Assembly: GCA_030407315.1 (NCBI GenBank) | Contig: JALQPE010001869.1 | Coordinates: 1-64,000, forward strand | DNA from: Asparagopsis taxiformis | Taxonomy: Eukaryota; Rhodophyta; Florideophyceae; Bonnemaisoniales; Bonnemaisoniaceae | DNA: 64,000 bases | Reading direction: 5' to 3' | In this document: in pieces, positions 26,626 through 61,664 of the stretch | Numbering within the stretch: the first letter of the stretch is position 1 | Layout: the number at the start of each line of letters is the position of its first letter | Position numbers and translations under genes: made by a program | Notes under the pieces: model-generated | What the model was told of the DNA's origin: nothing | Databases searched by the model: none | What the model saw: the letters and a program-made list of their open reading frames with translations, nothing else

Positions 26626-28608
26626 AACGCACGTTTCGAGCGGAACAGAACAGTACTTTTGAAAAACAGAATAGAAAAAGAGGGAATGAAGTAACTGTGT
26701 CACGCTGATATGTCACGCACGGAGTGGAAGTCCGGGTGACAATGACGATACTAATCGATATCATACTTCTGTATCAAGTTATTCGATACCCTTGCACCAT
26801 TGGGGCATTACTCTAGGAAGAATTATATTTATAGCAAGTGACGAACCACTTTTATGGTGAGTGGTGTACACTTCAGATATGGCTGTAAGGATACACTGCC
26901 AATGTTCCGGTTTCAGTGTGAGTCCGATTGGCTATCGATGATCAAATTAGTTTACAAAGATAAATTGCACCGATATGGTAAATGTAATTGAAATATTTGA
27001 ATGAAATCGACGTATCAGAGGCCTGAGTTGGATAAACATATTTTCGATGATAGTACATTTGTCAACCTGCTATTGGTAGTAAAACAAGATATGTATACCT
27101 CTCGGAACTTGAGGCTATAGTTAGGGTTATTCTTCCGGCGCCAATGCCGCGCGTTGACAAATACAGTGTGGTCTACCAGCAGTGATGGCAGTTGGGCTGT
27201 GTGAGTATCGGGGTATTTGCGTGGTGTGCCTAGCCAGACACAACCTGGTTTGCACTTTCACAGTATCATTCGATCCGCAGAGTGGCCGTCCCCATCACTC
27301 GTGCACTGTGGAGCAACTCAAGGCGATTGTCAGCACCAATTGGTTACATTCGTGGGTCAGGAATGCAAAGCATTGCGTATATTGAAGTAAGCATGTCTGT
27401 ATCACTGCCTGATGTACACAAGTATGTTCTACGAAAAAAACTGACTGTCATGCGCATCAAAAAGTATCTTGTCTAGAAGCCCGTGGTGATCTTTACAGGA
27501 ATGATTCCCAAGGTCAGCTTTTCAGCCTGGTTTAGTCCAAACGCATTTCATTTGTTACCAGTATGATGAATCGAGCGATGAAAAACCTGTGAGCACACAA
27601 GAAGGTACGCGCAAATGTGTCAATACTTCCCATGCTTGGGTGTTCAGACCATGTCCACATATCTAGCCGAGTACAAGTTCTGGCACCTCTAATCCTTCGT
27701 TTTAAGACAACTCCCTGCATAAGCTTTGGACGTTAAATTCGCATGGATGATCTGGCGTATGGGAATCACAATACTTCGGATACGTCTATGGAAATTGTGT
27801 GCTGTACAGAGAACTTTTGGGCTGGGATGACAGTCATGTCAACATTGGCGTATTCCCTATTAATTTCACTGCCATTATCAAATCACGTACTGCATTCATA
27901 TATTGCTACATCCATGCTAGACGTGCAGATAGTACAAGAAATTTATTCACAGGGCTGGCTTGACCCAAACGCATGCAAAGCGCAACAACACCTTAACCTT
28001 ACCAGTTCACGGCAATGGCTACTGACCATGGCTACTGAATTATCTTAGTTGCATACAACATGTTTCAACTTAGCAGATGCTGACAGGTTACATGCGTGGT
28101 GAAGAGATGCACAGCAGCAGCAATTAAGAGTTCTGGCTCTATTGTTATAGGACTAGCTCTGAAGCATACAAGAATCGTAGCCTCTGCAGACACACACAGG
28201 TCTTGATTCTAAAGCTGTTATTATTCGAACAATTCATCGCTGCACTGTGTTGTGCCATTAAGAATGGCACAAATGCACATTCTTACATGCTTGCATGCAT
28301 GTCTATAGACATAGCATACTGTGTAATGGACGTTGGGCAAGTGAAATAATCGCGGAGATACACTAACCATTGAGAATTTTATACAATCGAGACACGCGCC
28401 AAAACTTCTATTCATTTGCTGAAGCACATTTCTCGGTGTACAGGCGCATATTCATATGATCAGTCGAAAACATTCAAGATTCAAGACCCTGGCACATCGA
28501 ACAGATGCCAGTGCAATGGCATGTACTCTAATCGTTTCCAGCTTCCCCACATGTGAGGAGTGGAGAATCATTTCCGTTCTCAGTTTTCTCTCGGTCTGAT
28601 TCGAATTG
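26626..28608 (+). repeat. Element A left terminal inverted repeat (about 1.98 kb)
   Basis: Every position x pairs with 64508-x, with no net length change through to 28608/35900. I noted two single-base differences well inside the arms (near 27460 and 27955) and two at the inner edge. The open frames within it recur in the mirror arm and are not supported as genes. The 201 bases 28609-28809 between it and the transposase stop hold nothing recognisable. Confidence 0.9.
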
Positions 28609-28809
28609 GACAATCTTGCGTTGCGAACTACCTATGATCTAACCGAAACTTAAACTCCACTACTAGTTCCTTCTTTGTAAGCAACGAGTTCATTTATCTA
28701 ATCTTTCTGCTTTTGTAGAGGTCTCTGTCAGCCGAATTAAGAGCTTTAATCGTTGGTGATATCTTTATGTCGTGATAACTTCCGGAGAGTGCTCACGCTT
28801 GGCCAGGGA

Positions 28810-31311
28810 CTACAAGAATATTTCCTGTAGCGTCTTCACTACACTCATACGTAGAGCACCGCTCCTTGTTAGATCTTCAAACTCTACGATAACGGAGGCT
28901 GTGGAAATCGTATCGCGCCAAGGTTGGGGACTCTTCTTTGACCTGTAAGCAATATATGACGGGCTATATTTGCACCGGTAGATATTTTTGCCTTCGGCTG
29001 GTTGGTACCAGTGAACATGTAGTCTATGAGCATCTCCCACAGAGTCGTACAACACATTACAAATTTTCCCTATCCAGAAAGGGCATTGAGAAGAAGTGGT
29101 GTTGTGCTTGACTGCAACAAAGCGATTCTTCTCATATATGTATCTTTTTCTTGGTCTTGCAGCTGGGTACACGTCGGAATCTTCTGAGTCTTCCGATTTT
29201 GTATCTGTAGAATTTAAGTCTCTTGAAATCCAGCTATTAAGTTCCACACAGTTTCCCATATCCCAATGAAACTTCTCTTCTCTGGAATCGAAAACATGAT
29301 CAAGTAGGTTTGTTAGTTCTCTCATCTTATCACTGTCGTTAATTCGACCTTCTTCAGAGCGCAATCTCAATTCAATCTCACGCCGCCCATCTGGACATGT
29401 CAAAACAGTTGGTGGAGTTTCCCGAATATCTGGAATACCAGCTAGGAAAGAGTCCGGGATGTTCTTTTCCCTGTGACTCATCAGTTTCCACTCGTCCGAG
29501 GACATTATTTTCACATAACATACTGTGGTACTGGCGTGGGGAGAAGGCAGTTTGCCACTGTCTTCAGTGAACTTGAAGTACCTGAAATCAGAAAAGTTTC
29601 GGGCTCTGGTTAAGTGTTTCTTCTCTTGACAAAGCCCTGCAAAATTTGCCACGTGACGGATATTGGTGACAGCTGGAGTAGGAGTATAAGACATGCGGAG
29701 CTGCTCGTGAAGGTCTCGTAGAGTGATTGCATCGTTGGAGCGTAGACGGCCAGAAGTACAACTAAATGCTTGATCAATATCGCTGTGAGTATGCCCGATG
29801 GGCAGGAAGGAGGCATGAACTTCACTGAACACTTTCCATGCAACGAGAGACTCAAGGTATGCTAGGAAATACCTATTTTTGTTCTCTCTTGTGCAGTTGT
29901 CAAGCTGCACGTAGAGAGTTTTCGGTAACGCTTTTGTTCTGGCTTTCTCAGCCAGAAACCTGTGAACAGCCTCCACTATGTGGTTGGCTCCAGTAGGAAA
30001 TTCCTCTGTCATTGTAAAAAGATGGAGTTCCTTCTCAACTGCGTGCTCTAGTATACCGATCAGCCTCACCTTCATTGCCCTTCCTGTAGTTTTTTTGGTT
30101 TTAACTGCAAAATGTGGCAGTCCAAAAGCAGATTGATCTGCACCATCGACGCAAATAGAACAGAACTGTTTAGGATTGAGAATTGCTCGCTCTGCCTTCT
30201 TTTGATATTCCATCCTTTCCCTCCACACCATATCCACATGCGCCTTTCTTTGTAGCAACAGATCTTCGGTAGAATATCCAGGTTTAGATGCTTCGAGAAT
30301 TGCAGTTCTAAGGTCTTCACATGTGGAACACTTCGTGAAACGAGAGACCCTTCGAACTTTAATGGATGAACAGTGCTTTTTCCAAACATGGTAGAAGTAT
30401 GACATTGAAGGGGGCTCGGTCGAGTTGAGAATGCTATACTCGTTCTCATACCTCCTGTAGACTTCGGACTTTTTGAAGAACGGAAGGTGTTGCTCAGATT
30501 TATCAGGCATGTTTCCGGCTGTAGAATCCGCTAGCCGTGACAGGAAGATAATGATCGAATCTTTCCGAGCGCTTAAAATATTATTTCCTCTGCCTTTTGC
30601 ATGAACTCGGGCAAGTGCTCTGTCTGTCATCTTCACTTTGCTCTGAAGGTGTCTTGAGAACCGAAAGGCTTTGCAAAGGAATGTGGCACATACTACATTT
30701 CCATTGAAGATGAAGACTTTCCTGTCGCCTGTTGTTGTTTTCTCATAGCCAACCATGCTACTGAGTACATTCCGTCTCTTCGAATTGCTCATACATGCAA
30801 CTTCAGAAATTTCCTGTTTGAGATGGGAAGCATCCACAGCTTGGAAACATCTCCTTTTGCAACAGCGCCCCTCCTCTATCTTCGCTTCTGTCATTTGTAT
30901 TGCAGCATCTAAACGTCTTTTCTTCAGAGTGCTCGGGTATATATCAATGTTCTCGCATTCTCTTTTCTCTCTCTCATTCGGGTCGTATCGAAACCTGCTA
31001 GCATCTCTGAAATCCCCCTCATTTCCAAGAAGACGAGAGGTGGACAGCAGCAAAGATCCATGTTCATTATTCTCCTCATCCAGACTTTCGGAGTTACCAG
31101 AGCTGTTTCTCGATGAAAACGAGGAGCTCACAATTTGTGTATGGTCCATACGATTCATAGGAATCCTATGAGCGCTCATTTTTCGTACCTTATTGCCGAG
31201 GTAGTAGTAGCTGCAAGTGTAACAGCACTTGGAATCAGTCAAAGAACTTCTTGCACTCAAGAGGTACAAAATGGGTGCGCAGAAGCATCCAAAGATCTGT
31301 CGAGCATGCAT
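28810..31311 (-). CDS. Element A putative transposase (DDE-like)
   Basis: 833 codons from ATG 31311, uninterrupted. A cysteine motif RCCKRRC is at about 149-155 and a second Cys pair RFTKCSTCEDLR at about 324-335. The predicted catalytic core has VDGADQSAFGLPHF at 388-401, QLDNCTRENKNR at 469-480 and GHTHSDIDQAFS at 506-517. These acidic positions, spaced on alternating strand-helix sequence, suggest an RNase H-fold nuclease. The layout recalls uncharacterised eukaryotic proteins grouped under names such as DUF7869. The strong case for a transposase is its place inside a precise inverted-repeat element with target duplication, and its recurrence in B and C. It diverges from the methyltransferase gene across 1.2 kb. 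Confidence 0.75.
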   Translation of the reverse strand: MHARQIFGCFCAPILYLLSARSSLTDSKCCYTCSYYYLGNKVRKMSAHRIPMNRMDHTQIVSSSFSSRNSSGNSESLDEENNEHGSLLLSTSRLLGNEGDFRDASRFRYDPNEREKRECENIDIYPSTLKKRRLDAAIQMTEAKIEEGRCCKRRCFQAVDASHLKQEISEVACMSNSKRRNVLSSMVGYEKTTTGDRKVFIFNGNVVCATFLCKAFRFSRHLQSKVKMTDRALARVHAKGRGNNILSARKDSIIIFLSRLADSTAGNMPDKSEQHLPFFKKSEVYRRYENEYSILNSTEPPSMSYFYHVWKKHCSSIKVRRVSRFTKCSTCEDLRTAILEASKPGYSTEDLLLQRKAHVDMVWRERMEYQKKAERAILNPKQFCSICVDGADQSAFGLPHFAVKTKKTTGRAMKVRLIGILEHAVEKELHLFTMTEEFPTGANHIVEAVHRFLAEKARTKALPKTLYVQLDNCTRENKNRYFLAYLESLVAWKVFSEVHASFLPIGHTHSDIDQAFSCTSGRLRSNDAITLRDLHEQLRMSYTPTPAVTNIRHVANFAGLCQEKKHLTRARNFSDFRYFKFTEDSGKLPSPHASTTVCYVKIMSSDEWKLMSHREKNIPDSFLAGIPDIRETPPTVLTCPDGRREIELRLRSEEGRINDSDKMRELTNLLDHVFDSREEKFHWDMGNCVELNSWISRDLNSTDTKSEDSEDSDVYPAARPRKRYIYEKNRFVAVKHNTTSSQCPFWIGKICNVLYDSVGDAHRLHVHWYQPAEGKNIYRCKYSPSYIAYRSKKSPQPWRDTISTASVIVEFEDLTRSGALRMSVVKTLQEIFL

Positions 31312-32506
31312 GCTGCATTTTTTGAGGACATAGGGACCATAATCTATTGAGTTGGAAACTATTCACCCGATGTCAATAAACTTCGTGACAGGTGATGTTG
31401 GAAAAACATAGGTAGGAGTCTATGCCATTGCAGTCATTCCGTTTAACTCAAAACATCACCAATTAGCAAGCCACATCACGTACCTATGTTCTGATATTGA
31501 TATTTGCACAGAGGTAGGAGAAAGACTGATTCAACCTTGTCCCAAATTTGAAGTTATTCTCCCTGGGCATGACCATACGTATCTCAGGAAAGTTTCCATA
31601 CAGAACAAAACTTGCTTTACAAAGGGCCAAAATAGAAATGGGCGGTTGAATACTATATATGAAAGTACCAAGGAGATGGTACCACGTCGTTACATTTGGC
31701 AGTTTTCTGTCAGTAGACAACTAGTCCTATATCTCGATACCGATATTCGAATTTATGAAAGATCTTTGCAGTGCGCCGACCAACAAAAATGAAACATAGA
31801 GTCCGAAATTACAGACACGCGAAATTGTGACAATTGCGTCATATGGTGGTCACTGCGTAGACTTGGGAAAGTTTGTTATCAACACTTCGAGTGTGCATCG
31901 TTATTGACTAATGACCTCGACGAAATGACATGTCTTCGTACCAGTGTATTAACTTAAAATAATTTAAAATGTTCTGACAGATAAAAATTAGAGTGCGACA
32001 AGCTGGGCAATGGGCCTCTCTTCAGAGACAGTTTATCTAGTGAATTACTTCCACTTCAGCACTGAATGGCTAAGTCCCTAGGGTTTTTTACCTTTATGTT
32101 TCAGATCTGGCCATGAATGAGTACAGTTTACCCTTCTGTGAATATCTTCAGACGGGTCACAAGATTATCACCGTTTATCATACGCTACTGTCCTTGATCC
32201 GTCGTGGAAGTTCTGCAGTTGTTCCACGATGACATCATTACTTGTATCCGTGTAAAGGATTACTTTTATGCTTCCCTCAGGCATCCAGTATGTTCATAAG
32301 ATATTTGCAATGCTCGCGTTTTGAATACATTATTCTGGACAAAGCCGATGGGGCCATTGTTATCTTGTAAACTTTTGTTGCGTTCCAGGTGCACTCAGCT
32401 CGATACCTTTCCTGTACATTAATGTTCTGCGTAGATACTATTGCCGTAATACTGTCCGTGATCACTGAGGAAGTATTCTGGACCATTTCAACCTCTGCAC
32501 AAAGAA
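31312..32506. promoter_or_regulatory. Divergent intergenic region of element A
   Basis: 1.2 kb between the two divergently read genes, holding no supported gene. It must contain both promoters. No conserved box can be identified with confidence, and I saw no similarity to the equivalent region of B and C. Confidence 0.4.
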
Positions 32507-35353
32507 ATGAAAGGCTCCCAGAGAAGAACAACTCGACATTCAAATTATATTCCTCTTGTTTCTAAACAAGGTTCTGGTTCAAGAAATGCTCCGGTTGCTC
32601 GCTTCTCATCCGTAATGGATGGTTCTACAAATACGTCTGTCGACCCTATGGCTTGTGTACCAATGACAAACATAAGGCAGATATCTCGATCAGGCGTGGA
32701 TAGACTAAAATCTATTTTCACATCTGAAGGATTTACTTGTGGTTCAGACTTGGGGATAGTTATGAAGCTGAGTGGAGCTCACCGACACCATCTATCTGCC
32801 TATTTCAAGAAACAAGGCCTTTCTGCAAGTGAAACTAAGGAAAAGAGCGAATCGAGGAATGAGTGGTATGGAATAATTGACGGGATGCATCGACACTGTG
32901 CGCTGATAGAGCTTATGGCAGATGACAGCAAAACCTGGAGCGGGTTTCAATGGCCTGTAACTCTTCTTTCGGGAGGTTTTCCATTGTTGACTCTTAAGCA
33001 ACTTGCACGTACTCAGAATGCCAAACATTCCGAGACATTTTACATTGAACCTACTCTATACGACACTTTGTCAGGTCTTAAGGAAGAGCATGAAAGACTA
33101 AAGGGCGAGAAGGATGTCAAGAAGGTAACAATGGCGGAAGTTTCAGCAGCATATGATGGTGCAACACACTCGAAGGAAAGCACAGTGAAGCAGATGGCTG
33201 CTACAGCTGTTAGACTTTCCCGCAGAGTAATTGAAGCAATAGGGGACGTTATGAAGGAAGAGCACCCCGATCTTGCTGTGGTGTATCGAGCTGCCCATGG
33301 AGAGCCCGTTTCAAAGGATAACGTCATGTCAACAGTAGATTGCCGCGTCTTTAGAAAATTCATCAATATTACGTCATTGAAGCAGTCAACAATCTTTATG
33401 AAAGCTGATGATGCACAAGGAGAGGAGATTCAGATCCATACGGTTTATAGGCTTCGAGAGCTTTGTCAAGAAAAGAACTTCAGGCCAGTTTAGCATTCAT
33501 CCGTCTCAGATCAATACAAGAAAGCATCAAGAGCTCTTCAGGAATCAATCAAATTTGAGGAATTTCTTGAAACTACAGTATGGCCGTCTGACATGCAGTC
33601 GGCACGGATCAATCTCCTCCGAAGTACTCGTCTTGATGAGGAAGTTGAAGAGAATCTTGGTAACGATAAAGATATCTTACCCTTCTTGAAGGACTTATAC
33701 CGCAAACTTTATCCTTCTTTAGCGCCACAAAAGGAATCCAAATATACAGCTATCTTCGGTCATTCGGGAGAAGAAGAGGAAGAAAATAAGACGCGAATGA
33801 AAAATGCCGGCTGCACCCCGTTTGAAAAAGATGAACACCAGTCAGACTCATGTGACCTAGTGGCTTCCGCTGGAGATGCGAATGGAAAGAGCGAACGTGC
33901 AAACGAGAAGAATGAGTTTTGGAATAGTAAAGATGCTCCAATTCGCACGAAAAAGACCGATAAAAATGCTGGATCAATTGAGAAATCACTACATCGCTCT
34001 AAACCGGAACAGCCCCACAGCACAGAAGTATCTGAGCGGCTGGAAACAACACTATGTCTTCAAGAAAAGAACAATTCACAGAATCCTGTGACGGGAACAT
34101 CTGTACCTAACACACCTCAGACATCCGAAGACATTCTTGATGATCTCGGGATAAAGTGCTTCCAAATGCGGTGGGAGCAATATGAAAAAGGAAGCAGGAA
34201 ACCAGATAGTGAGCTGTTTGATTTTATATGCACCGATCCCCCTTACGGATTAGAACCGAATGCCTCTGGAGCTGGTCAAAATTTCTCTGACAGATTGGAC
34301 GACAAAGAAATCGCTTCATTTTGCCAGTTTGCCCACAGAATGTTGAAAAGTGGTGGATATGTTTTCATATTTTCTTCCGTGAGATACCTTCAGAAGTGGA
34401 TATCCACTCTCCGTGAGTCAGGTTTCCGAGCTATGAGCCACGTTTATGCTATTGTCAAGAGCTCAGAAAGGTTGCAGCATCACCGACTGTCGTCTTTCCC
34501 TCAGAATCTAGCAGAGTTTGGAGTTGTAGCTCGGAAAAGTGGATCACATCCTCAGCAGTTTTCTCCTGATTTTACCAGTCCCTATCATCGCTTCAAATGC
34601 GCTTCAAGTCGAAGATTTTCTGCTATCACGGACGTTCCTATACCGATCAAAAAGCTAACATTTCCTGGAAAGAAGACCGTCGTCCGGGTTGAAGAAAAGA
34701 GCGTCGATCTCTTGATCGAAATCATGACAACATTCTGTCCAGAAGAAGGTGCAGTCCTAGATGCCTACGCCGGCACCCTAACTACTGCTATTGCATGCCT
34801 CGAAACTAACAGAAAATGCGTCAGCATTGAACAGGATCCAGAATGCTTTCGCGTGGCACATGGGAGACTTCGGCGAAAAGCAGCAGGCTCCAGGAAACGC
34901 CATCAACTAGCCACTGAGAATCCAGGGATAACAAAGAAGCTAAAGACAAACAACAGTTCGCAAAGTATTTCTGTTGGTGTTACAACTGGGGAGAGCGAAA
35001 ATTTGACCGGGAGCGTGGTAACCAAGAACGACAGTGGATGCAATCATCTTACACCTGGCAAGACCGTAGAACTCCTAGTTGACGGAGTCTGCGTAGGTAC
35101 AGCTGAGCTTTCGCTTCCTGCTCAAGGAGAACAGACTCTGGTCAGAAGAACATTGCATGGGTCCGATCTCAATGAATTGAGTGCGCCTGGGCAGTGTCTT
35201 GTAGTAATATGGAGAGTAACCATACTTCCAGAGAATCTTAGCCTTCCTTATACGTACCCATGTCCCGGAACAGATGAGGCTCCTTCCACCCTAGGTGATA
35301 TTACGGATAGCTTCTACGCCTGGGATGCGGGACATATCAGAATGAGAGGATAG
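32507..35353 (+). pseudogene. Element A ParB-methyltransferase, one in-frame TAG
   Basis: ATG at 32507; frame of 948 codons with a single TAG at codon 329 (33491-33493). A ParB/sulfiredoxin-like segment has WYGIIDGMHRHCALIELM near 120-137. A helical region that may be a helix-turn-helix follows (MAEVSAAYDGATHSKESTVK). After the stop comes an acidic linker, then motif IV CTDPPYG near 575-581 and motif I VLDAYAGTLTTA near 750-761: a beta-class amino-methyltransferase. C has a sense codon at the aligned place (PVSFA against PV-stop-H). The break could be mutation, readthrough or removal by splicing; sequence on both sides stays well conserved, so any inactivation is recent. Confidence 0.75.
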
Positions 35354-35899
35354 ATCAAAGGTATACCATCCCGACAGCACTACTGTATGAGCATGATAAT
35401 CATTCAAACCATTAACAGTTCTGCTGCTGATGATATCATCTTTCCAACTCCTCTGAAAGGTAAAATATAGATTACCACTGCTTCCTTGCAATGATTGTAA
35501 GCTGTTGCTTGCGTTTCAGAATGGCAAAAGAGATGCAGAAAACTCAGTGGTTTACATGGATACAAATAATACAGTATCTATGAATGGTTTCGAGCTTCAC
35601 ATACAGACAAGAATGGAGAAAAAGGTTGCGTCCTCTCTGCCCATACTTGAATAAACTCGATCAATATATCATTTCTGTTTTCTCGAGGATGGTACAAGGA
35701 CCAGCACCAACTTCATGTATGTCAATGACTGCGATAGTAATGCTTCATTAGAAACGTAAATGATAAGGTAGCGCAAACTTCATCTCATCATTCTCCGTGG
35801 ACTGTTATCCAGCTCGACTCCAAAGTATCCACCTGCTATTTCCATTCGCCTGATGTTCCAAGTTTATTCCAGTCTGGAAACTCCAATAGCCAAATGTTG
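35354..35899. other. Element A, 3' flank of the methyltransferase gene
   Basis: No gene seen. It runs from the methyltransferase stop codon to the inner edge of the right terminal repeat. Confidence 0.35.
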
Positions 35900-37882: not shown

Positions 37883-38245
37883 CCTCGCCAATTCCTTTAT
37901 GGTGCAGTGAGCTACAAAGCGGGAGACGGTGGCTTTGTTGGTGAAAATGCTGTTCACGACCTGGCAAGCAATGTGCATGTCGGGACCGCGGTTCCGGCAT
38001 GAAACGCCACGCGTGTTGGTACCCTCTAGAATGGAAGCGAGATAGCGCAAAGCGGCCAATTCATCATGGATAGGAGCGAGAAACCGTTGAAGAAGTGCGG
38101 AGTACGTCTCTTCTATTTCGCTATTTCGCAGAGCAGGTCGTTGTTTTCGCTGGGAGGAGGCATGAGGGACTTGTATGGTGTGGAGAGGGGCAAAGAGCAT
38201 AGGCGTCGCATCCAAAGCGGGTGAGGCTGGAGGACTAGTAGACAT
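37883..38245 (-). pseudogene. D2 accessory gene, 5' part (split by element A)
   Basis: ATG at 38245-38243. It opens with a Pro/Ala/Ser-rich leader, then a helical segment (EETYSALLQRFLAPIHDELA) and CQVVNSIFTNKATVSRFVAH. The frame runs into the CCTC duplication and resumes at 26621 in the same frame, beyond element A. The product is unrecognised. It lies on the strand opposite the D2 transposase remnant. Upstream DNA (38289-39010) is a dense cluster of hairpins. Confidence 0.55.
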
Positions 38246-38349: not shown

Positions 38350-38612
38350 ATATGACAACTTTTTTGACCCCCCCTGCAGATTTCACTCTAGTTTACGAAT
38401 ATGCTGGTAATTTCAATGTAATTGAAGTAATTGTAATTACATTTTCTGGAGCACACTAGATTCTCGAGACCGACTCGCTGGCGAGATAATTACTTTCCGT
38501 AATTAGTAGTTGAAATTGACACTCAATTGCAATTACTTCAATTACAATGTAGTTAATACCATATTCGGAAACTAGAGTGAAATCTACAGGGGGGTCAAAA
38601 AATTTGTCATAC
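38350..38612. repeat. MITE-like inverted-repeat unit X
   Basis: The left part, atgacaacttttttgacccc followed by agatttcactctagttt, is mirrored at the right end by aaactagagtgaaatct and gggggtcaaaaaatttgtcat. In between are alternating taattg/caatta runs and a ctcgagaccgactcgctggc core. No coding capacity. A second copy lies inverted at 38684-38946. Confidence 0.75.
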
Positions 38613-38617
38613 TGGAA

Positions 38618-38678
38618 TTGGTCGAGCAAAACTCAATCCGGGAAACGGACTAGGCCGGATTGAGTTTTGCTCGACCAA
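38618..38678. repeat. 61-bp hairpin, copy 5
   Basis: Arms ttggtcgagcaaaactcaat and attgagttttgctcgaccaa pair perfectly. It is flanked by gtcatactggaa on the left and ttcaggtatgac on the right, which extends the inverted symmetry outward with one mismatch. Confidence 0.9.
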
Positions 38679-38683
38679 TTCAG

Positions 38684-39526: not shown

Positions 39527-39530
39527 CTTC
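39527..39530. other. Target-site duplication of element B, left copy (CTTC)
   Basis: CTTC precedes AACAGTATATTCG at 39531 and recurs at 61665-61668 after the inverse terminus. Confidence 0.85.
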
Positions 39531-50404: not shown

Positions 50405-52954
50405 ATGAGTCGGAAAACAAGATCAGTGACAAAGAAAAGGAAGCAGAATCTTCATGCGGAGGATTTATCAATTGATCCATCGGGTATGGAGGTCGTAAAA
50501 GAGGCCTTCAGAGAACTGGTCAAGGATGCATCAGTAACTACAGTAGACCGAAAATCTTGCATCCCATTTACAAGAGTTCGCAAATTGTCAGCGTCTGGTA
50601 TCAAACGTCTGAAGGAATCATTCCATGGTAATATTGAGGGGAATGGTGGTGTTACATCTGGTGGGGTGATTCCAACTGTCGTCATGCTGGACGGTGCATA
50701 CAACTCCTATCCTCTTGAGTACTGGAAAGTTGTGATGAAAGGAAGAGGATTATCTAATGAAGAATCTGAAAACGAAGCTTCCAAGATCGTTGGTAGCCAA
50801 CCAGTTTGGTATGGAGTTGTGGATGGTGCTCACAGATTAAGGGCAATTGAAGAGTTGATCAGAGAAGAGCCTCGGCGATGGTCCGGTTTCTCTTGGACTG
50901 TGATGGTCATAAAGTCAACGGATCTCGGTGAGCTGCGATCATTTGCGCGCAATGTTAATGAAAAGCAAAAAGAAGAGTATGTGGTCGTACAAACTGCTTA
51001 CGACACTTTACGTTATTTGAAAGACGAAATCAACAAGTACATTGCAGAACATGGTTCTTCTCCAAGTGCAGTGCAAATTGCTAAGAAGGTAATGGTTGGG
51101 CAGAATTGGGCGGTGTCAACAATGACACAGCTTGCCCGCACAGCCTCGCGGCTTTCAGAGGAGGTCATTGAAGAACTGGGAGAAATTTTGAACTCGGAGC
51201 ACCCAGCTCTTGCTCAAACCCTTCAAAACCAATTACCACCACACAGACGATGTCGCGGCACTCCTGATTGTCGTATATATAAGGACATCATTAGTTCTTC
51301 ATCTCTGAAGCAGGCCACTAACTTCATGAAGTGCAAAGATATCACCGACTCCATCAACACCCTGAAGCGAGTGAAGTATTATGCTTCTCAGAATAACTAC
51401 AAGCCGGTCTCCTTTGCAATCGTCGAGAAGCAATATGCAGCAGCAGTTGCAGCGCGTCTAGAGGCCATTAAATTTGAGCGGTACTTACAAACAGATCTGT
51501 GGCCAGAGGAAATGAAAGCAGCGAAGGGAAATTTGCTTCACACAACATTGTTCGATGCCGCAATTGACTCAAATAGAGGAAACGAGCAAGACATACTACC
51601 TCCACTGCTTGAACTTCATCGTTCCAAGTTCCCTGATGACTCTTTTCTATTGCATGCGAAGTTCAAAGCTTCATTTGATTCAGAGGAAGCTCCCTCAGCG
51701 TTGCAGTCCGGATCTTTGTGCAGACAAGAAGCTGACACAGTTCTTAACATTCTAGATGCTGAAAATAGTGATGAACCTCCAGAAGTTGTACCGTTTGAGT
51801 CATCTGGTACTGAGAACATCCATGCTACCGATCACCAAGAACGAGAGACTTCAGGGGATTCACCTGAGAAAAGTGAACATTGTACTCGTCTGTTGTCTAC
51901 TGGAAATCCATCGGGAGAAGGCAATATGGAAGGAGAAGAGTCCTTGGTTCGTGCTGGCATAAGGCATTATCAGATGACTTGGCAGCAGTATGAGCTGTCT
52001 GTTCGGAACACTAGTAATGGAGAATGCAACAAGTTTGATTTCATTCTAACTGATCCTCCCTATTCTTTGAGTTCATGCAATCAATCCTCTACTGGGAGAG
52101 GCTACAATGACTATATCGATGAAGAGGAAATAGAATCTTTTAGTCGATTCTGTCGTCGTACACTGAAGCCAGGTTGCTATTTCATCATATTTTCTTCCTT
52201 TCAACTTCTGCCTTCTTGGTGGAGTGCCCTTCGCAAGGCCGGAATGGTGGTAACAAGTTATCCATTATTACTTGTGAAGGATTCAGCGACGTTGACAAGG
52301 AACAAGAGTAGCTTCGCTCCTCAGAACTGTGTAGAGCCTGCAGTGATGGGATATCTACCAGGTGGGAAATCAAATCAATTCAAACTCGATCTGTTCAGTT
52401 CATACTCAGTACTTAAGTGTAATCACTCTCGCAAATTCTGTGTATTGGACAATGTCAAGGTTCCGAAAAAACTCTGCGTAGGGAAGTCACCGGTACGTAT
52501 TGAAGAAAAGAGTACCGTCGCTCTGACGGAAATACTAGCCACGTTCTGCCCTCCCAGAGGATTGGTCTTCGACGGCTACGCGGGTACCATGACGACGGCG
52601 ATCTCATGCGCTTTTACCTCAAGAAAATGCATAGTTGTGGAGAAAGACCCTCATTGCTACAACCTCTCACTACAAAGACTGAAAAGGATTTGCGCGCACA
52701 TTCTGAACGATAAAATACCCAGAAACCCCGCTACCCATGGTAACGTGAGGCAGACATCTGAAACGATATCTTCTATACTTGAACATATCACAGCAGAATT
52801 GTCAACCAAGAGGAAGCGTTACCGACAGGATGATGGAGATCAGACACAGAGCAGAACCGAAAGTACCGAAGATGACCCGAGTGATGGTGAAAATAGTCAA
52901 TGTGATGGAGAAGATATTGAAGCATCCAAAGGTTCTGAGAGTGATGAAGTATAG
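50405..52954 (+). CDS. Element C ParB-like/HTH/DNA methyltransferase, intact
   Basis: 849 residues from ATG 50405, the first in-frame ATG. The N-terminus is basic (MSRKTRSVTKKRKQ). A ParB/sulfiredoxin-like domain has VWYGVVDGAHRLRAIEEL near 134-151. A ParB-type helix-turn-helix is likely at about 221-258 (AVQIAKKVMVGQNWAVSTMT). An acidic linker spans about 415-510. Motif IV LTDPPYS is near 548-554 and motif I VFDGYAGTMTTA near 721-732, followed by acidic VVEKDPH: beta-class order, as in bacterial and phage enzymes that methylate adenine-N6 or cytosine-N4. The DPPY form is commoner among adenine enzymes. The C-terminus is acidic. ParB-methyltransferase fusions are known in phages and bacteria; here it sits in a eukaryotic transposon. 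Possible roles are marking the element's own ends or chromatin, or regulating transposition. Confidence 0.9.
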   Translation: MSRKTRSVTKKRKQNLHAEDLSIDPSGMEVVKEAFRELVKDASVTTVDRKSCIPFTRVRKLSASGIKRLKESFHGNIEGNGGVTSGGVIPTVVMLDGAYNSYPLEYWKVVMKGRGLSNEESENEASKIVGSQPVWYGVVDGAHRLRAIEELIREEPRRWSGFSWTVMVIKSTDLGELRSFARNVNEKQKEEYVVVQTAYDTLRYLKDEINKYIAEHGSSPSAVQIAKKVMVGQNWAVSTMTQLARTASRLSEEVIEELGEILNSEHPALAQTLQNQLPPHRRCRGTPDCRIYKDIISSSSLKQATNFMKCKDITDSINTLKRVKYYASQNNYKPVSFAIVEKQYAAAVAARLEAIKFERYLQTDLWPEEMKAAKGNLLHTTLFDAAIDSNRGNEQDILPPLLELHRSKFPDDSFLLHAKFKASFDSEEAPSALQSGSLCRQEADTVLNILDAENSDEPPEVVPFESSGTENIHATDHQERETSGDSPEKSEHCTRLLSTGNPSGEGNMEGEESLVRAGIRHYQMTWQQYELSVRNTSNGECNKFDFILTDPPYSLSSCNQSSTGRGYNDYIDEEEIESFSRFCRRTLKPGCYFIIFSSFQLLPSWWSALRKAGMVVTSYPLLLVKDSATLTRNKSSFAPQNCVEPAVMGYLPGGKSNQFKLDLFSSYSVLKCNHSRKFCVLDNVKVPKKLCVGKSPVRIEEKSTVALTEILATFCPPRGLVFDGYAGTMTTAISCAFTSRKCIVVEKDPHCYNLSLQRLKRICAHILNDKIPRNPATHGNVRQTSETISSILEHITAELSTKRKRYRQDDGDQTQSRTESTEDDPSDGENSQCDGEDIEASKGSESDEV

Positions 52955-54302
52955 GATAGTATCGAAGCTGAAACAAAGGTTCTGCTATCTCCTAGCACAC
53001 TCAACTTCAGCCTCGACTCATTAGAATTAAACAGCGATATTTCGTTGGTGTTTTGGCAGACTAGTCGACATTTAGATTGATAGAGAAGCGCTTAGAATCT
53101 ATTTCAATGTCCAAATCCGACAGAATGATAGATATGGTCATGTAAATACTGCTGCACAGGCCTCTAAATGCATTAAATGCAGATAGGTGTCTCCAGGACA
53201 TGTCATTGAATCCTCCGCCCATCTGTGAAATGTCGTAGTTATCTGCAATGACATCTGCTCTTTCGACAAACTTGGAAAGCGTTATGGGACAAATCAGGTA
53301 TGTAGTTTGCCTTTCATAACGAAAGTTGACTCCAATATGTGTTCGCAGCATTGAAGCATTGCTGAATCTTCGAGGGCTCTAGCCTGACTGAACCCACGGA
53401 GGTCATCGTCGCCGTTTTGATAATCGATACAACTTTCAAATTTCTTCAACGATCGTATCTGGTATCAACAGTTCTTGAAGTGCCTCTACTCTTTCTACCA
53501 GCTGTTCTCTCCTGGATGACCGGCATACTGCAAATGATAGCAGCTGAGGAACGAGGCATTTCGTGCGTGTAGAACTTTTCACCAGTAGCCTTCAGCCCCA
53601 TTCTTCTTCTTTCCAATCATTTTCTTCGTTAAACTGAGCAGCATATACAGAATTGACGTTAGCGCTTCATTTCCTCATAGCCATATTTTCCACTTAGGGT
53701 TCTCTACTCGTTCCCGATTTCATAGCTAGTCGACCCTCTTCATTTCATAGTCTATTTTATTATGTACAGTCCACAACGAAGTACTCTAGGGAATGGTACT
53801 ATATGACTGCTTCTCTTCGTCCTCCCATTTGAAAATTCCTGGTATCGGCGATTAGATGTGGCTGCAATCATTACCGCTGCACCATAGTGTATGAACCCAT
53901 CAGAAAAAATTTCTATTGCCACGTGGTTTGAATATCATTACTTGAAGCTGCTCAAAAATCATACGCTACCATTGCCGCTGCAAACCATCAATTGGTCATA
54001 ATTTACGAAGATTACAGTTTATGTGAATGACCAATAGCAGTTTGACAGAAAAATGTTGGCTTCCAGAAATTCGTAAGGTTTGACCATTGAACTACTGCTG
54101 TATTTTGACGGCCTAGCCGTTGACGTACTAGCTCGGTTCGACTTACCTTCCTACCTTCCGCACACCGCGCCCATGTAACCCATCCAGATCGCCAAAACCC
54201 CCGCGCTTCGAATAACTGCTTCTCTCCTGTTTTCCGCCTCACTCTTCATCTAGCGCAATTTGTCTTCATACCATGAAGAAAATCACTGCGCGCCTCATCA
54301 CG
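52955..54302. other. Element C spacer 3' of the methyltransferase
   Basis: Mirror of 41119-42466 in element B. It contains the same convergent 96-codon frame (53061-53351, minus strand), with no recognised function. Confidence 0.4.
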
Positions 54303-55890
54303 TATGCAATTATGCTGCCGCATTCCTACTGCCCGGAACGCGGACAGAATCGCTGCCTGCATATCACGCCCATATATCTCGTGCGAGCAGCCCACTTCCT
54401 GGTACTTCCAACAGCAGTTCCTCTCCTATTGTGCGCCTCACTCTTTATCTAGCGCAATGTACCTTCATTCCACAACGATCATCCGTGCGTGGTGCACCAA
54501 ATCAGCATGCTGTATACAATGTGTTTGTTACACAATATGCATTTTTTGGTATACTGCTTCGTCGTCGTTCCCATACTGACATAATCTGTTCTAGCTGCCA
54601 CCACACCACGCAGCATCTCCACCTTATGGTGTCATATCATCTGATCCATCATGCTCGAACGAGCTTGATACATCCATCTACACCAGTGGCTAGCTATACT
54701 GCTTCTACAACACTGCTCATGCTGCTCAAGGAGGAATTTGATAACGTTCCGAAATGAGCCCCACAATAGCACACCTACTGCCCGCTGGGCAGCATATGGG
54801 TCACTGCTTCGTTTTCGTGCCCATATTATACAACCAGCCTTTCCACTGCAGTTCTTGTGCGTCCTGCGCCTCTTTCGGAGCCACAAGTACAGATTTGGCT
54901 GCCACTATGCCGCGCAAATAATTTACGGAGCTCCACCATTACCGATCTCACTCCATTCGCCACATCAGTGTCCAACTATACGGCTGAACATCGCTCTTGA
55001 ATCTCAACGAAGGCACTGGAAAGTGCTCTTTATCGCACAAGATGTTAGTCACGACTCACCCACCAGCTTGGTGACCAAATATAACAGCTCCCTCACACAC
55101 TATCACTGAAAATAGGCCCTTTTTAGCCTCATTATATGGAAGCATCAGAGCTACGCTGCAGGTTCGCGGAGAGTTTGACGCTTCTTCACGCTTCGGACGA
55201 TCCTCTAGCTTCAGCTCCAGCGCAAATTTTCTCCATCATGCCCATACTTATCCATGCCATGCTGATGTATGCAACCTTGTTGCGACATGCGCTGTTTCTG
55301 AGATGTCATACCTGTTTGTCTATATCTACGAAGCATGCATGCTCATATGATGACGTTCATGTTCTACAGGTTTTCATGTGGTCTAATTTGTGTCTTCATC
55401 TGCATCATTTTGGGTCTGCGACGAGACCCTCACGGTACAGTGATAATCGACTATGCTGCTCATGCTTTACCAAAGTTTCATGAGCTCAGGTTTGGTTCTA
55501 TTTATAATCATGAAGTGTGAATGCTGTTGTGGTAAAAGAAACAAGTGAGAATAAATGCATTGAGACAATGACTGGTAGCAAATTGAAAGATTCAGATCGT
55601 GGCTCTAGTTAGTTATGAGATTGCGGGAGCACTAGACTACTGACTAGAGATTGGTTCCCATAGGAAGATTGTGTTATGGTGCAATAACAAGCAGCTGCGC
55701 TACTGCCTGATCTGTTCCAAATGCAGTGAATATGAATGTACATCTACGGCTGGAAGCGGCATTCAATCACTATGGAATTATTTTTTCCGTGCAGCAATCT
55801 CATTTAATCTATAAAAATATTCCAATATTTCCAACTAAGAATTTCATTCTCATGTTTTAATCTTATTCTCATCTACACGAATATACTGTT
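54303..55890 (-). repeat. Element C right terminal inverted repeat (1588 bp)
   Basis: Inverse of 44826-46413, ending ...CGAATATACTGTT at 55890 and followed by the ACCA duplication. Confidence 0.92.
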
Positions 55891-56085
55891 ACCAGACGCT
55901 GACAATTTGCGAACTCTTGTAAATGGGATGCAAGATTTTCGGTCTACTGTAGTTACTGATGCATCCTTGACCAGTTCTCTGAAGGCCTCTTTTACGACCT
56001 CCATACCCGATGGATCAATTGATAAATCCTCCGCATGAAGATTCTGCTTCCTTTTCTTTGTCACTGATCTTGTTTTCCGACTCAT
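55891..56085 (-). pseudogene. Element B ParB-methyltransferase, 5' part (split by C)
   Basis: ATG at 56085, encoding MSRKTRSVTKKRKQ through RVRKLSASG, about the first 64 codons, and then interrupted by element C. The remainder is at 42467-44825. Confidence 0.9.
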
Positions 56086-57777
56086 AGCTTGTTTCGAGGT
56101 GTTCTGCAGAGCGGTAGTTCTGCCAAAATGCGGGAAAGCGGATTTATTAAGCTCAGGAATGTATTGGTATTCCAGTTGAAGACCAAGTGCAAACAAATCA
56201 GCTCAAGCTTTGTTGGGGTGCAAGCAATAATATATGACCGTTCGTGGAAGAGATCTTCTAAAACGCTCAAGTCTCGCACAAAAAAAAGTCAACTCGGAAA
56301 CCGTGATGTAATTTAACCTTCAAAAGTTTTTGGTTCAGCCTAGTAATTTTTCCTATTCAGCAAGCGGCTGTTCACTCAGAATGCGTTGAACATCACAGGT
56401 GAAATTATCGTAACGTACAATGAATGTCACATATCACGGTTTTCCGAACTGACATATACGCCATCGATGATTTCAAGTATGTCTCTAGAATTTGTTTGCC
56501 CTTAAAAATTCACTGATTGGAATGTGGTAGAGGACGAGGTGAGCTGCACTGCAAACTTTCTCACATGACAAATGATACTCAATACTGAAGGAGATCTCTA
56601 TAGAGCTATGTGCCAATACTCATATTGCACCAATAGCTCATAGAAAGAAGCATAACGAGTTGTTGTTCCAATGCAATGAAACAATTCTTGTCTGAACATA
56701 CCGCGAAAGAGCATTTGATGAGTCATCATATCATCATTGAAAAAGGTTCATGGATGCGAAATAGAGCTCACATATGGCCCATTATTGATATTGCCAGTTT
56801 GTCTGACAGTTTTGCTGAACGTACACGGGAATACCAGCGTACACTGGTGACGGTTCTGTCGAGACAGAATTGAGAATGTACGGCACGCGATGATATAGAT
56901 GTGCACATCTGTGAAAGTGCAGTATTAATACACCCCACTTGCTGAAATCACCTGGATAAAACACGATAGATTTAGATTAGTCCCGAGGGATACTTCCAGG
57001 AATGGTGTCTGAGCATATGACGTATGGTGTCATTATGATGGCGACTATTGAATCTTCGAATGAGTTCCTTATCATACGCAGATGAACAACGTGGCATGAT
57101 ACTGTCGAACAAGTTTTGAAATTTCCCCTTGCCAGGATTTTTTAATATAAGGCGGATAGGTAAGATTCCGAGTCTATACGTGTCATGAGTACAGCGATGG
57201 GCATGAATAATAATCCATCAAGGCTCGACCGAGCCTGTCGGTGCAAAGCCGAGATTTGAGCTTCCTGAATACTAGAACGTCTTTTTGATGTTCCATGCGG
57301 CATGCTAAACTGTAGAACTAGCGATCAATACGTTTCGAAAGTAGTTATGGCTGCGCAAAATCATCTTTCACACTCAATTGAGCTGAAATTTGGAATACAA
57401 TTATTCATGTTTGTCTATCACTAGTCAGTTGAAATGAGAAAAGACTATGGAAGCTGAGTGTGATGAAATACTCTCCAACCCTCTTTGCTCCGTGACAACT
57501 TGTTAGATTGAAGATGAATTTGGTATACCTAGTGCCGCATCTGGACATGCCTGTAGTGTATCCAGTAGAGCTGTTCATTTATTGTACCTCTAGTGTATCA
57601 TAGGAATGGAGAACATTCTTGTATTGCACTTCGTCCTTCTACAGGATACTCCCTAACAGAAATCCGGACTGCTTCAATCATGGCCGGAAGATAAATTCCG
57701 ATCATCTTCCAGGCACTAACTCAAATGCAACTGTCAACAAGAGCTGTTCAGAGTCTATTAACCACTATTACTCACGA
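56086..57777. promoter_or_regulatory. Divergent intergenic region of element B
   Basis: Same sequence as 48713-50404 in inverse. It presumably drives both genes. No supported gene. Confidence 0.4.
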
Positions 57778-59976
57778 ATGGAGCACCTTATGGACGAGGA
57801 AGTCCCGAAACGGCAGTACAAATTTACCTCAAGAACCAGGAGAGAACATACGGCTCCCAGTATGCTCTACAAACGTCGCCAAGAGATGGCAACTGTCAGA
57901 GACATGAGTCACCTAAAATGTTGCAAACGTCGATGCATTCTGGAAGCCGATCAAAGATATCTACATGCTCAGAAGCAGCGCATCCTATCAATGTCTCGTG
58001 AAGAAAGGAAACAAAGTCTAACAGAAATGCTGCGAGGCAACTTTTTCTGGTTCAACTCTGATCGAGTATGCACAGAGTTCCTGGTAAAAGCATTTGGATT
58101 TTCTAGGCAGCTGCAAGGGTCAGTGAAGCGGCTTCCGTCTGCGTCGGCGTCATCTGCTATTAAGAATCCTCCCAGGTTGCGAAGAGGGCGCAATCACTGT
58201 GACACAATATTATGCTTTCTCAGTCACACTGCTCAGTACAATGCTGAAAGGATGCCAGACTGCAGCGAAGTCCATCTTCCTTTTTTTCGTAAGCTTGACG
58301 CCTATATATCATTCAGGGAGCACTTTGCAGAAGTTGATAGCAGCGGTTCACCGGTTGCTCCACCATCTTATGCGTACTTTCTTCGCGTTTGGCGTGAAAA
58401 CTATCCCCATATCAAGGTCAGGAAGGTGCGGAGATTTACGAAGTGTGAGGAATGTGAACTCCTTCGTTCGAAACTGGAGAAAGCAGGCATGAGCGAGTCC
58501 AAGTCAGCACCAATACTTCTGAAGTACAAAGAGCACCATAAGTTCATTGCTAGAGAGAGACAAGAGTACTACAGCAACAGATTGAGGGCTGCACACAATC
58601 CTTCTCTAGTTTGCTCCATGATAATTGATGGAGCAGACCAATCTGCCTTCGGTTTGCCCCATTTTGTCATCAGAACGAAGGCAGAAAGGGGTCATTCTAT
58701 GAAGATTAAGCTAATTGGATTGATCGATCATGGAGCTATTAACCGATCTCACCTTTTTTTAATGACCGAGGAGTTTGAGACTGGTTCGAATCACGTAGTG
58801 GAAGCTCTACATCGTTCTCTGACTGTCAAATCCCAAACCGGGAGTCTTCCTGACACCCTATTCTTGCAGATGGATAACTGCACTCGGGAGAACAAAAATA
58901 GATTCACCCTATCCTATGTTGAATTCCTTGTTTCCATGGGTGTGTTCCTGGAGGCAACCGTTGCATTCCTACCAATTGGCCACACCCATGAGGATATCGA
59001 TCAGTTGTTTTCGAGAACAGCAACTCACTTACGAATTCGGGATGCTGTCACGATCGAGGACTTGGCAAAAGAGCTTCGTGAATCATACACGCCAACTCCT
59101 AACGTTTCCATAATGCGAAACATAGCGAACTTCTCTGGACTTCTCACCAAAAGTGGATGCGTATATAATAGAACAGCTCCGTTTTCGCAGTTCAGATATT
59201 TTCGGTTCACCAGAGCCATTCAAGCCGCCAACGTTCACAGCCCTTTCCGGACTCATCTAGCCGTCAAAATAGACTGTTCTGAAGAATGGAAACCATTCCC
59301 GGGAAACTCTCCAGGAAAAGGATTTCTCAAAAGCTGCCCAGATCTAAGTGAAACCCCGGATACGAAAATTGTATGTCCACCAAACATTCAAGATGTCACC
59401 AAGCGTATACAGTCTGTTGAATCATTTTTGTCCAACTATTCAAAGATTAAATCTTTGTTAGCGCTGAGAGACCAAGTATACCGTACTCGAGAAGAAAGGT
59501 TCCATTGGGATATTCAGCGATGTCCAGAACTAAATGGAAGGCACAGATCGATCTCAGCCCAGGATGATGCAGAACTTAGCGGTGTGGCCGATGATAAATT
59601 GAGCCTATCGGAAAGCATTTTATGCGACTACAGCTATAGCCCAAACGAGTTTGTTGCAGTGAAGACGGGAGAACCCTCCTGCCCATTCTGGATAGGAAAA
59701 ATACTCCGTGTGTACAAAAACGAGAGCGATATTGTTTCTGATCTTGAACTTCTATGGTATCAGAAGTACTGCACAAAGAGAAGTCGCTATAATAGTCAGG
59801 ATATCTACACCGGACAGTACAGTGTAGCAGTCATGCAAGACAGGAACGGAAACGAGACTCAATGGACTGACAAAGTTTCAGTCCAAGCTGTTGTTGTTAA
59901 ATTCAACAGTTTAAATGCAGACAGGCGACTTAGTGTTTCTGTGAGGAAACAAATAAAAGAGTGTCTCCGAACCTAG
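57778..59976 (+). CDS. Element B putative transposase (DDE-like), intact
   Basis: 732 residues from ATG 57778, the first ATG in a frame open from about 57619. A Cys motif LKCCKRRCILEADQ is near 46-59 and a second, RFTKCEECELLR, near 219-230. The predicted catalytic core has IDGADQSAFGLPHF at 283-296, QMDNCTRENKNR at 364-375 and GHTHEDIDQLFS at 401-412. It is homologous to the element A protein across the core. Its family assignment (DUF7869-like, RNase H fold) is from memory of such proteins and unproven. As the only transposase of the B/C type in the window without a lesion, it is the likely source of activity for both. Confidence 0.8.
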   Translation: MEHLMDEEVPKRQYKFTSRTRREHTAPSMLYKRRQEMATVRDMSHLKCCKRRCILEADQRYLHAQKQRILSMSREERKQSLTEMLRGNFFWFNSDRVCTEFLVKAFGFSRQLQGSVKRLPSASASSAIKNPPRLRRGRNHCDTILCFLSHTAQYNAERMPDCSEVHLPFFRKLDAYISFREHFAEVDSSGSPVAPPSYAYFLRVWRENYPHIKVRKVRRFTKCEECELLRSKLEKAGMSESKSAPILLKYKEHHKFIARERQEYYSNRLRAAHNPSLVCSMIIDGADQSAFGLPHFVIRTKAERGHSMKIKLIGLIDHGAINRSHLFLMTEEFETGSNHVVEALHRSLTVKSQTGSLPDTLFLQMDNCTRENKNRFTLSYVEFLVSMGVFLEATVAFLPIGHTHEDIDQLFSRTATHLRIRDAVTIEDLAKELRESYTPTPNVSIMRNIANFSGLLTKSGCVYNRTAPFSQFRYFRFTRAIQAANVHSPFRTHLAVKIDCSEEWKPFPGNSPGKGFLKSCPDLSETPDTKIVCPPNIQDVTKRIQSVESFLSNYSKIKSLLALRDQVYRTREERFHWDIQRCPELNGRHRSISAQDDAELSGVADDKLSLSESILCDYSYSPNEFVAVKTGEPSCPFWIGKILRVYKNESDIVSDLELLWYQKYCTKRSRYNSQDIYTGQYSVAVMQDRNGNETQWTDKVSVQAVVVKFNSLNADRRLSVSVRKQIKECLRT

Positions 59977-60076
59977 TGAGGGAAACTCCTGATTGATCTA
60001 TGACCTGAACGCATTGGAAAAGCCTACGCTCCATCATACTTTCATCTCGTATCCAAATGGAAACAATATGCAAACA

Positions 60077-61664
60077 TATGCAATTATGCTGCCGCATTCC
60101 TACTGCCCGGAACGCGGACAGAATCGCTGCCTGCATATCACGCCCATATATCTCGTGCGAGCAGCCCACTTCCTGGTACTTCCAACAGCAGTTCCTCTCC
60201 TATTGTGCGCCTCACTCTTTATCTAGCGCAATGTACCTTCATTCCACAACGATCATCCGTGCGTGGTGCACCAAATCAGCATGCTGTATACAATGTGTTT
60301 GTTACACAATATGCATTTTTTGGTATACTGCTTCGTCGTCGTTCCCATACTGACATAATCTGTTCTAGCTGCCACCACACCACGCAGCATCTCCACCTTA
60401 TGGTGTCATATCATCTGATCCATCATGCTCGAACGAGCTTGATACATCCATCTACACCAGTGGCTAGCTATACTGCTTCTACAACACTGCTCATGCTGCT
60501 CAAGGAGGAATTTGATAACGTTCCGAAATGAGCCCCACAATAGCACACCTACTGCCCGCTGGGCAGCATATGGGTCACTGCTTCGTTTTCGTGCCCATAT
60601 TATACAACCAGCCTTTCCACTGCAGTTCTTGTGCGTCCTGCGCCTCTTTCGGAGCCACAAGTACAGATTTGGCTGCCACTATGCCGCGCAAATAATTTAC
60701 GGAGCTCCACCATTACCGATCTCACTCCATTCGCCACATCAGTGTCCAACTATACGGCTGAACATCGCTCTTGAATCTCAACGAAGGCACTGGAAAGTGC
60801 TCTTTATCGCACAAGATGTTAGTCACGACTCACCCACCAGCTTGGTGACCAAATATAACAGCTCCCTCACACACTATCACTGAAAATAGGCCCTTTTTAG
60901 CCTCATTATATGGAAGCATCAGAGCTACGCTGCAGGTTCGCGGAGAGTTTGACGCTTCTTCACGCTTCGGACGATCCTCTAGCTTCAGCTCCAGCGCAAA
61001 TTTTCTCCATCATGCCCATACTTATCCATGCCATGCTGATGTATGCAACCTTGTTGCGACATGCGCTGTTTCTGAGATGTCATACCTGTTTGTCTATATC
61101 TACGAAGCATGCATGCTCATATGATGACGTTCATGTTCTACAGGTTTTCATGTGGTCTAATTTGTGTCTTCATCTGCATCATTTTGGGTCTGCGACGAGA
61201 CCCTCACGGTACAGTGATAATCGACTATGCTGCTCATGCTTTACCAAAGTTTCATGAGCTCAGGTTTGGTTCTATTTATAATCATGAAGTGTGAATGCTG
61301 TTGTGGTAAAAGAAACAAGTGAGAATAAATGCATTGAGACAATGACTGGTAGCAAATTGAAAGATTCAGATCGTGGCTCTAGTTAGTTATGAGATTGCGG
61401 GAGCACTAGACTACTGACTAGAGATTGGTTCCCATAGGAAGATTGTGTTATGGTGCAATAACAAGCAGCTGCGCTACTGCCTGATCTGTTCCAAATGCAG
61501 TGAATATGAATGTACATCTACGGCTGGAAGCGGCATTCAATCACTATGGAATTATTTTTTCCGTGCAGCAATCTCATTTAATCTATAAAAATATTCCAAT
61601 ATTTCCAACTAAGAATTTCATTCTCATGTTTTAATCTTATTCTCATCTACACGAATATACTGTT
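60077..61664 (-). repeat. Element B right terminal inverted repeat (1588 bp)
   Basis: Inverse of 39531-41118. The 100 bases before it (59977-60076) follow the transposase stop and hold no gene. Confidence 0.92.

Follow-up and report, generated by a model that had tools for sequence, protein, structure and literature searches.

The 64,000-nucleotide stretch of Asparagopsis taxiformis DNA analysed here (the window, C1745:1-64000, from an assembly of 141,494,207 bases in 3,156 contigs) carries three complete DNA transposons of about 11 kb each, A, B and C, which occupy positions 26626 to 61664, the outer ends of A and C. Gene content also makes a red alga the most likely source, unless contig C469 is a contaminant: 11 of the 13 phycobilisome-family matches of the assembly are on C469, next to frames that by eye resemble ATP synthase subunits, and the PDB entry closest to a beta chain from this contig is 5y6p, from the red alga Griffithsia. 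The three share one plan: terminal inverted repeats with arms of 1.6-2.0 kb, a 4-bp target site duplication (TSD) and two divergent genes, one encoding a DUF7869 protein and the other a ParB-like region fused to a DNA methylase. This organisation had been proposed in a sequence-only reading of the window, and all of it was found at 26626-61664, including the IDGAD, DNCTRENKNR and GHTHxDID motifs of the first protein. The features are, in order:

26626-37882: element A, 11,257 bp, with the 4-bp TSD CCTC at 26622-26625 and 37883-37886
26626-28619, plus strand: left terminal inverted repeat arm of A, 1994 nt, with 2 mismatches in the first 1970
26646-26651, plus strand: end box CAGAAC of A at +21, followed by a second box, CAGAAT, at +42 (26667-26672)
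28810-31311, minus strand: DUF7869 gene of A (PF25273, E 8.9e-51), 833 aa, encoding a probable DDE/D transposase
32507-35353, plus strand: ParB-like (DGxHR) and N6_N4 methylase gene of A, with an in-frame TAG at 33491-33493
35889-37882, minus strand: right terminal inverted repeat arm of A
39531-61664: element C, in the pieces 39531-44825 and 55891-61664, with the TSD CTTC at 39527-39530 and 61665-61668
39531-41121, plus strand: left terminal inverted repeat arm of C, 1591 nt
42467-44825, minus strand: 3' part of the ParB-methylase gene of C, which is split by B and has its 5' part within 55891-56202
44826-55890: element B, 11,065 bp, inverted inside C, with the TSD ACCA at 44822-44825 and 55891-55894
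44826-46416, plus strand: left terminal inverted repeat arm of B, with boxes GAGAAT at +21 and +40
46514-48871, minus strand: DUF7869 gene of B, with an in-frame TAA at 48374-48376 and 617 aa open after it
50405-52954, plus strand: ParB-like (DGxHR) and beta-class methylase gene of B, 849 aa, uninterrupted
54300-55890, minus strand: right terminal inverted repeat arm of B
57619-59976, plus strand: DUF7869 gene of C, an uninterrupted frame of 785 aa
60074-61664, minus strand: right terminal inverted repeat arm of C, 1591 nt

The arms within each element are identical or near-identical (100% in B and C). B is inserted, in inverted orientation, in the ParB-methylase gene of C, and C without B differs from B at a single one of 11,065 positions. 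This one difference gives the TAA in the DUF7869 frame of B, which is not present in C. Every one of the three copies has a broken gene: the methylase of A carries a TAG, the DUF7869 gene of B a TAA, and the methylase of C is split. Among three other copies of A that were compared, the methylase frame is open over the stretch examined in L002 and L004, and broken in L003. The B family is not confined to the record of this assembly, since a contig of 3,336 bases from a public source encodes an 851-aa protein (P0001) that is 95% identical to the ParB-methylase of B.

The pairing of the two genes extends across the genome. There are 502 candidate places for DUF7869 (PF25273); every one of the 150 that were scored exceeds the family cut-off, and PF25273 had no match in any of 14 control genomes. 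Ten loci were chosen from the 150 listed, making 12 families together with A and B/C, although C593 and C613, counted apart here, are near-duplicates. A divergent ParB-methylase partner is present in nine of the ten loci, C2530 being the exception. Taken from the side of the methylase, a divergent DUF7869 gene lies within 9 kb of 57 of the 93 ParB-methylase places listed, against about 0.4 expected by our own arithmetic, and no convergent one was seen. This count is a lower bound, given that 150 of the 502 DUF7869 candidates were listed and that the 36 unpaired places include B and C. A separately chosen list gives 38 paired of 70 methylase places.

Distance matrices of DUF7869 and of the ParB region from ten families (omitting the near-duplicate C593 and the partnerless C2530) are strongly correlated, with a Mantel r of 0.909 that was not reached in any of 20,000 permutations. 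Trees of both proteins hold the groupings (A,(C1017,C250)), (C417,(C609,C2731)) and (B/C,C2034), although the ParB-methylase tree gives the C1017-C250 node a support of 0.64; the positions of C613 and C1579 differ between the trees. The two genes have diversified as a unit, which bears out the earlier claim that the pairing is kept between the diverged A and B/C. Between families, pN is 0.29-0.35 against a pS of 0.80-0.84 for the methylase (four comparisons) and 0.32-0.36 against 0.81-0.86 for DUF7869 (five comparisons), figures for which the comparisons are not all independent, dS is saturated and omega is inexact. The pair C609/C2731 gives pN/pS values of 0.255/0.832 and 0.212/0.918. These values indicate purifying selection on both genes and, together with the co-divergence, support the suggestion of the sequence-only reading that the methylase serves the element.

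The candidate transposase is the DUF7869 protein. Across an alignment of 33 proteins, of which 26 come from a public protein collection, four aspartates (D389, D471, D511 and D513 in the numbering of A) do not vary. Their spacing, with the surrounding hydrophobic stretches, would, read by eye, suit an RNase H-like DDD enzyme. The protein had earlier been called a DDE-like nuclease, and it is plausibly a DDE/D-type transposase. KDZ and Plavaka models have no match in the DUF7869 proteins. A protein database search (7999 candidates scored) returned 161 relatives, none of them named among the 120 listed. A prokaryotic or viral origin was also considered and set aside, as a non-exhaustive search of viral and genome contigs with two short peptide patterns each gave no relative.

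The partner protein has the features of a beta-class amino-methyltransferase (N6A/N4C), as had been claimed, judging by its motif order and its Pfam domain. Profile searches gave PF01555 (N6_N4_Mtase) in 10 of 12 aligned members, several of which are incomplete because of locus ends or stops, and CcrM, below its curated cut-off, in eight. TDPPY and YAGTMTT, which we take to be motifs IV and I, respectively, stand in that order in B, and TDPPY precedes AGTxTT in the full-length rows of the alignment. Genome-wide, PF01555 has 2,605 candidate stretches, and the 150 that were scored are all above the cut-off. In the PDB, entries of the adenine-specific DpnA score best (E 3e-4 to 1.2e-3), closely followed by methyltransferases without a name; as DpnA is the best match, 6mA is somewhat more likely to be the product than 4mC. 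In five of five scanned proteins the methylase domain also matches phrog_67 (E 3.6e-16 to 8.8e-27), a group of phage DNA methyltransferases that differ in their phage context and in having no DUF7869. In the region fused to the methylase, the box W-Y-G-x-x-D-G-x-H-R is invariant in 12 rows, except for the Y, which is nearly so. This box, along with weak ParB-superfamily matches in one of the 12 members each (DndB, E 0.0013, and DGQHR, E 0.04, both below their cut-offs, and GmrSD_N, E 2.3e-4), is the basis on which we call the region ParB-like. Two protein database searches, with 8000 candidates scored in each, found two and then four ParB-methylase relatives, none of them named. A viral origin of this protein was likewise rejected, no relative being found in viral contigs with two short peptide patterns in a search that was not exhaustive.

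Conserved ends connect otherwise dissimilar families. Besides those in the window, ends and TSDs could be resolved in C417 (GTCC), C1017 (ACCA) and C613 (CGAC), so that a 4-bp TSD is found in all six elements with both ends resolved (CCTC, ACCA, CTTC, GTCC, ACCA and CGAC); this count omits C2034 and C250, where 4-base matches lie 7-8 bases inside the repeat boundary, and C2530, which has a 9-bp match around another inverted repeat. Inverted repeat pairs bracket the genes in C2034, C250 and C2731 with ends that are not resolvable, and gene-bracketing repeats were not recognised within the examined stretch in C593, C609, C1579 and C2530, save for a 167-nt pair in C609. At the resolved ends the arms measure 1.2-2.1 kb. 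AAC is the start of the ends of A, B/C, C417, C1017 and C613, all of which have one (C/G)AGAA(C/T) box at exactly +21 and another at +38 to +43, and BLAST finds no other similarity among the arms of these five families. Scanning of the ten loci added a two-box end in one end each of C1579 and C2530, for a total of 7 of 12 families (A, B/C and five of the ten loci). The pattern AACAC-N15-CAGAAT has 273 matches genome-wide against 10 for the reversed control (27x). Among 100 listed matches are 21 inward-facing pairs, 10.6-20 kb apart, some of which combine dissimilar ends and may be neighbours by coincidence; 13 of the 21 contain a listed DUF7869, and five inward-facing pairs are exactly 10,974 bp long. 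A listed end lies 0.5-5 kb from DUF7869 in 19 of 33 checked places, nearly all of them on contigs with a listed end. The boxes are obvious candidates for transposase binding.

Empty sites confirm the insertions of A and C. For A, 40 of 130 candidate places were scored, and all 40 match the joined flanks through the junction with 96-98% identity, each lacking 6-10 bases of the query somewhere along its length. For C, 40 of 119 candidates were scored: 36 match at least 560 bases of the joined flanks over the junction with 94-99% identity, three further places span it over 452-487 bases, and the last is the window's own right flank. The insertions are real, and empty sites occur elsewhere in the assembly; since the flanks match in many places, A and C landed in copies of another repeat.

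As Sola elements are described as combining a 4-bp TSD with a DDD transposase (PMC10741241), the elements are most likely Sola-1-like DNA transposons, a placement made by features and description. Both the 4-bp TSD and the terminal inverted repeats of Sola-1 were found, with arms (1.2-2.1 kb) that exceed the range of 11-1124 bp given for Sola (PMC10741241). Going by what their sources state, three other placements do not fit: Sola-2 is expected to have an AT-rich 4-bp TSD (PMC3627910), unlike the six C-rich TSDs here; KDZ (Zisupton) elements have 8-bp TSDs (PMC12730594) and their model has no match; and EnSpm/Plavaka (CMCT) elements have TSDs of 2-3 bp (PMC12730594), with no Plavaka match in the DUF7869 proteins.

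The nearest described system is Sola1-1_Ec32 of Ectocarpus, reported to encode a 1104-aa protein with a ParB-like region and an N4mC/6mA methylase on the strand opposite the transposase (PMC12477816, 2025). For transposons of green and red algae that carry similar proteins, the same paper refers to Iyer et al. (2011) and Petroll et al. (2025). The statement in the sequence-only reading that no transposon class is known to be built on a ParB-methylase fusion is therefore overturned by these accounts. Sola1-1_Ec32 resembles the present elements as a large DNA transposon with a divergent ParB-methylase opposite the transposase, and differs, as far as the descriptions can be compared, in its size (21.5 kb against about 11 kb) and in being one reported family, where many co-diverging families are found here. 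The red-algal giant EnSpm elements, as represented in the citing paper, share the presence of ParB-like methylases in transposons, whereas the DUF7869 elements have a 4-bp TSD and no EnSpm/Plavaka match. Fungal TET/JBP transposons (KDZ, hAT, EnSpm, Plavaka and others) are also described as carrying a DNA-modifying accessory enzyme, but one that oxidises 5mC (PMC12730594), while the enzyme here is a methylase in an assembly with no match to PF00145. The association is thus not new in kind, and is seen here in a larger and more diversified case. In the literature searched, mostly at the level of titles and listings, no paper mentioning DUF7869 was found, nor any account of DUF7869 as the partner, of the end boxes or of the co-divergence.

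The explanation that we favour, with moderate confidence, is that these are Sola-1-type transposons whose methylase marks their own DNA with an effect on the cycle of the element. The DUF7869 protein would be a transposase of the DDD type, responsible for binding to the end boxes and for cutting; the methylase would be tethered to element DNA by the ParB/DGxHR domain and would add 6mA (or 4mC) to that DNA. The mark may in turn control the element, through access of the transposase to the ends, timing after replication, or expression, a step proposed more cautiously than the others; self-control is suggested because the assembly shows no 5mC methylase to evade.

Several observations weigh against this explanation. 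A DDE model is matched by only one of the 33 DUF7869 members (L033), and weakly (DDE_Tnp_ISAZ013, E 0.0047), and the DUF7869 profile finds nothing meaningful in PDB. The ParB assignment depends on weak matches, and a PDB search with the ParB-like region likewise gave nothing meaningful. Several loci (C417, C593 and A) have an interrupted methylase frame, and 36 of the 93 listed methylase places have no listed divergent DUF7869 partner, four of the 36 having one on the same strand. The close pair C593/C613, with few changes, has an omega of 0.44 for DUF7869 and 0.61 for the methylase, and the saturation of dS between families counts here as well. Five of the 12 families gave no two-box end (C250 has a single-box candidate, and C2034, C2731, C593 and C609 have none), in some of which the end may fall outside the examined stretch, and the one-box pattern is weak, with 21 matches against 10 for the reversed control in the ten loci. 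Finally, none of 16 palindromic 4-mers and 16 five-base palindromes distinguishes the inverted repeats from flanking DNA; enrichment of GTAC is seen in the arms, the interior and the flank.

Alternatively, the ParB-methylase may act in transposition itself, in target choice or end bridging, with methylation secondary, a minor possibility that the pairing and co-divergence would also fit. Targeting could account for the insertion of B into C's methylase gene and for A and C lying within copies of a repeat; however, the six TSDs have no common site, and nesting in abundant repeats is expected by chance as well. That the methylase overwrites or blocks 5mC silencing by the host, as proposed for the fungal TET/JBP elements, has a precedent in transposon-borne DNA-modifying enzymes (PMC12730594) and is, in our view, rather improbable, since the C5-cytosine methylase family PF00145 has no candidates in the assembly in a six-frame search ignoring introns, which was positive in 10 of 14 controls. 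Protection from host 5mC is thus unlikely, and silencing by histone marks or small RNA may still be at work. As the RNase H-like fold of DUF7869 is putative, the true transposase could conceivably be another protein that acts in trans, with both genes as cargo; we consider this very unlikely, given that DUF7869 adjoins conserved ends in the 19 of 33 places mentioned above and has DDD-like invariant residues. Bacterial methylases of the class found here sit in restriction-modification systems, and an addiction-like stabilisation, where loss of the element or of its methylase harms the cell, can be imagined on that basis. Methylase-endonuclease pairs are reported from Mariner elements of viruses (PMC3627910); this reading is nevertheless highly implausible here, as no endonuclease family is above the cut-off among the Pfam matches of both genes and copies with broken genes persist. 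Misassembly of the B/C palindrome, which the complete identity of the B and C arms might suggest, is scarcely credible in view of the clean 4-bp TSDs on both elements, the empty C site elsewhere, the one B/C difference and the further copies of the family.

Under the favoured explanation, of Sola-1-type elements that mark their own DNA, what was a brief report from a brown alga becomes a testable system, with a gene pair, ends with candidate boxes and very young copies, in a host background apparently without 5mC methylases, and DUF7869, a Pfam domain of unknown function, gains a probable role. If the methylase does mark the element, red algae would lend themselves well to studying the function of 6mA/4mC in eukaryotes. 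A wider proposal, which we offer tentatively and consider doubtful as a whole, is that a superfamily of transposons runs its own methylation: a tethered 6mA/4mC methylase would have co-diverged with the transposase, methylation of the ends would take part in the transposition cycle, and most DNA methylation genes would be owned by transposons in a host without detectable C5-cytosine methylation genes.

Other methylases were seen in the genome. Within the window, 347-3529 on the minus strand is a frame of 1060 aa with an N6_N4 methylase domain (E 1.6e-14) and a SET domain (E 3.5e-6), related (BLAST E 7.9e-49) to a 1158-aa protein at L044:4001-7477 with ParB-like, methylase and SET parts. The latter matches the ParB family phrog_1033 (E 0.003) and belongs to a family with many like-scoring places. 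Methylase-SET proteins are a second methylase lineage of the genome, probably transposon-borne, and the context of 347-3529 is a separate one, possibly Plavaka/EnSpm-like. Adjoining the methylase-SET gene of L044 is a 343-aa frame (108-1139, plus strand) in which an HxD...H pattern can be made out by eye; the idea that L044:108-1136 is 2OG-dioxygenase-like was dropped, there being no family or meaningful structure match. A 942-aa ParB-like methylase at L045:3990-6815 (minus strand) has a Cys-rich C-terminal tail, and of its 10 like-scoring places none has a listed DUF7869 partner.

The surroundings of the three elements are also repetitive. A frame at 17030-18031 (minus strand) resembles the end of a Copia-type polyprotein by eye, with no Pfam match at E 1. 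Plavaka-like frames lie at 10875-13379 and 20642-23765 (minus strand), the first with a PF18759 match (E 0.018) below the cut-off, and 10875-13379 and 20642-22312 are 32% identical; these frames may be part of larger repeats hosting A and C. The blocks 18017-20432 and 61695-63898 form an inverted pair, 79-96% identical, that encloses A, B and C, and may perhaps be the long inverted repeat of a host transposon around them. Between A and C, at 38369-38927, is a foldback of two 273-nt arms that are 91% complementary and 13 nt apart.

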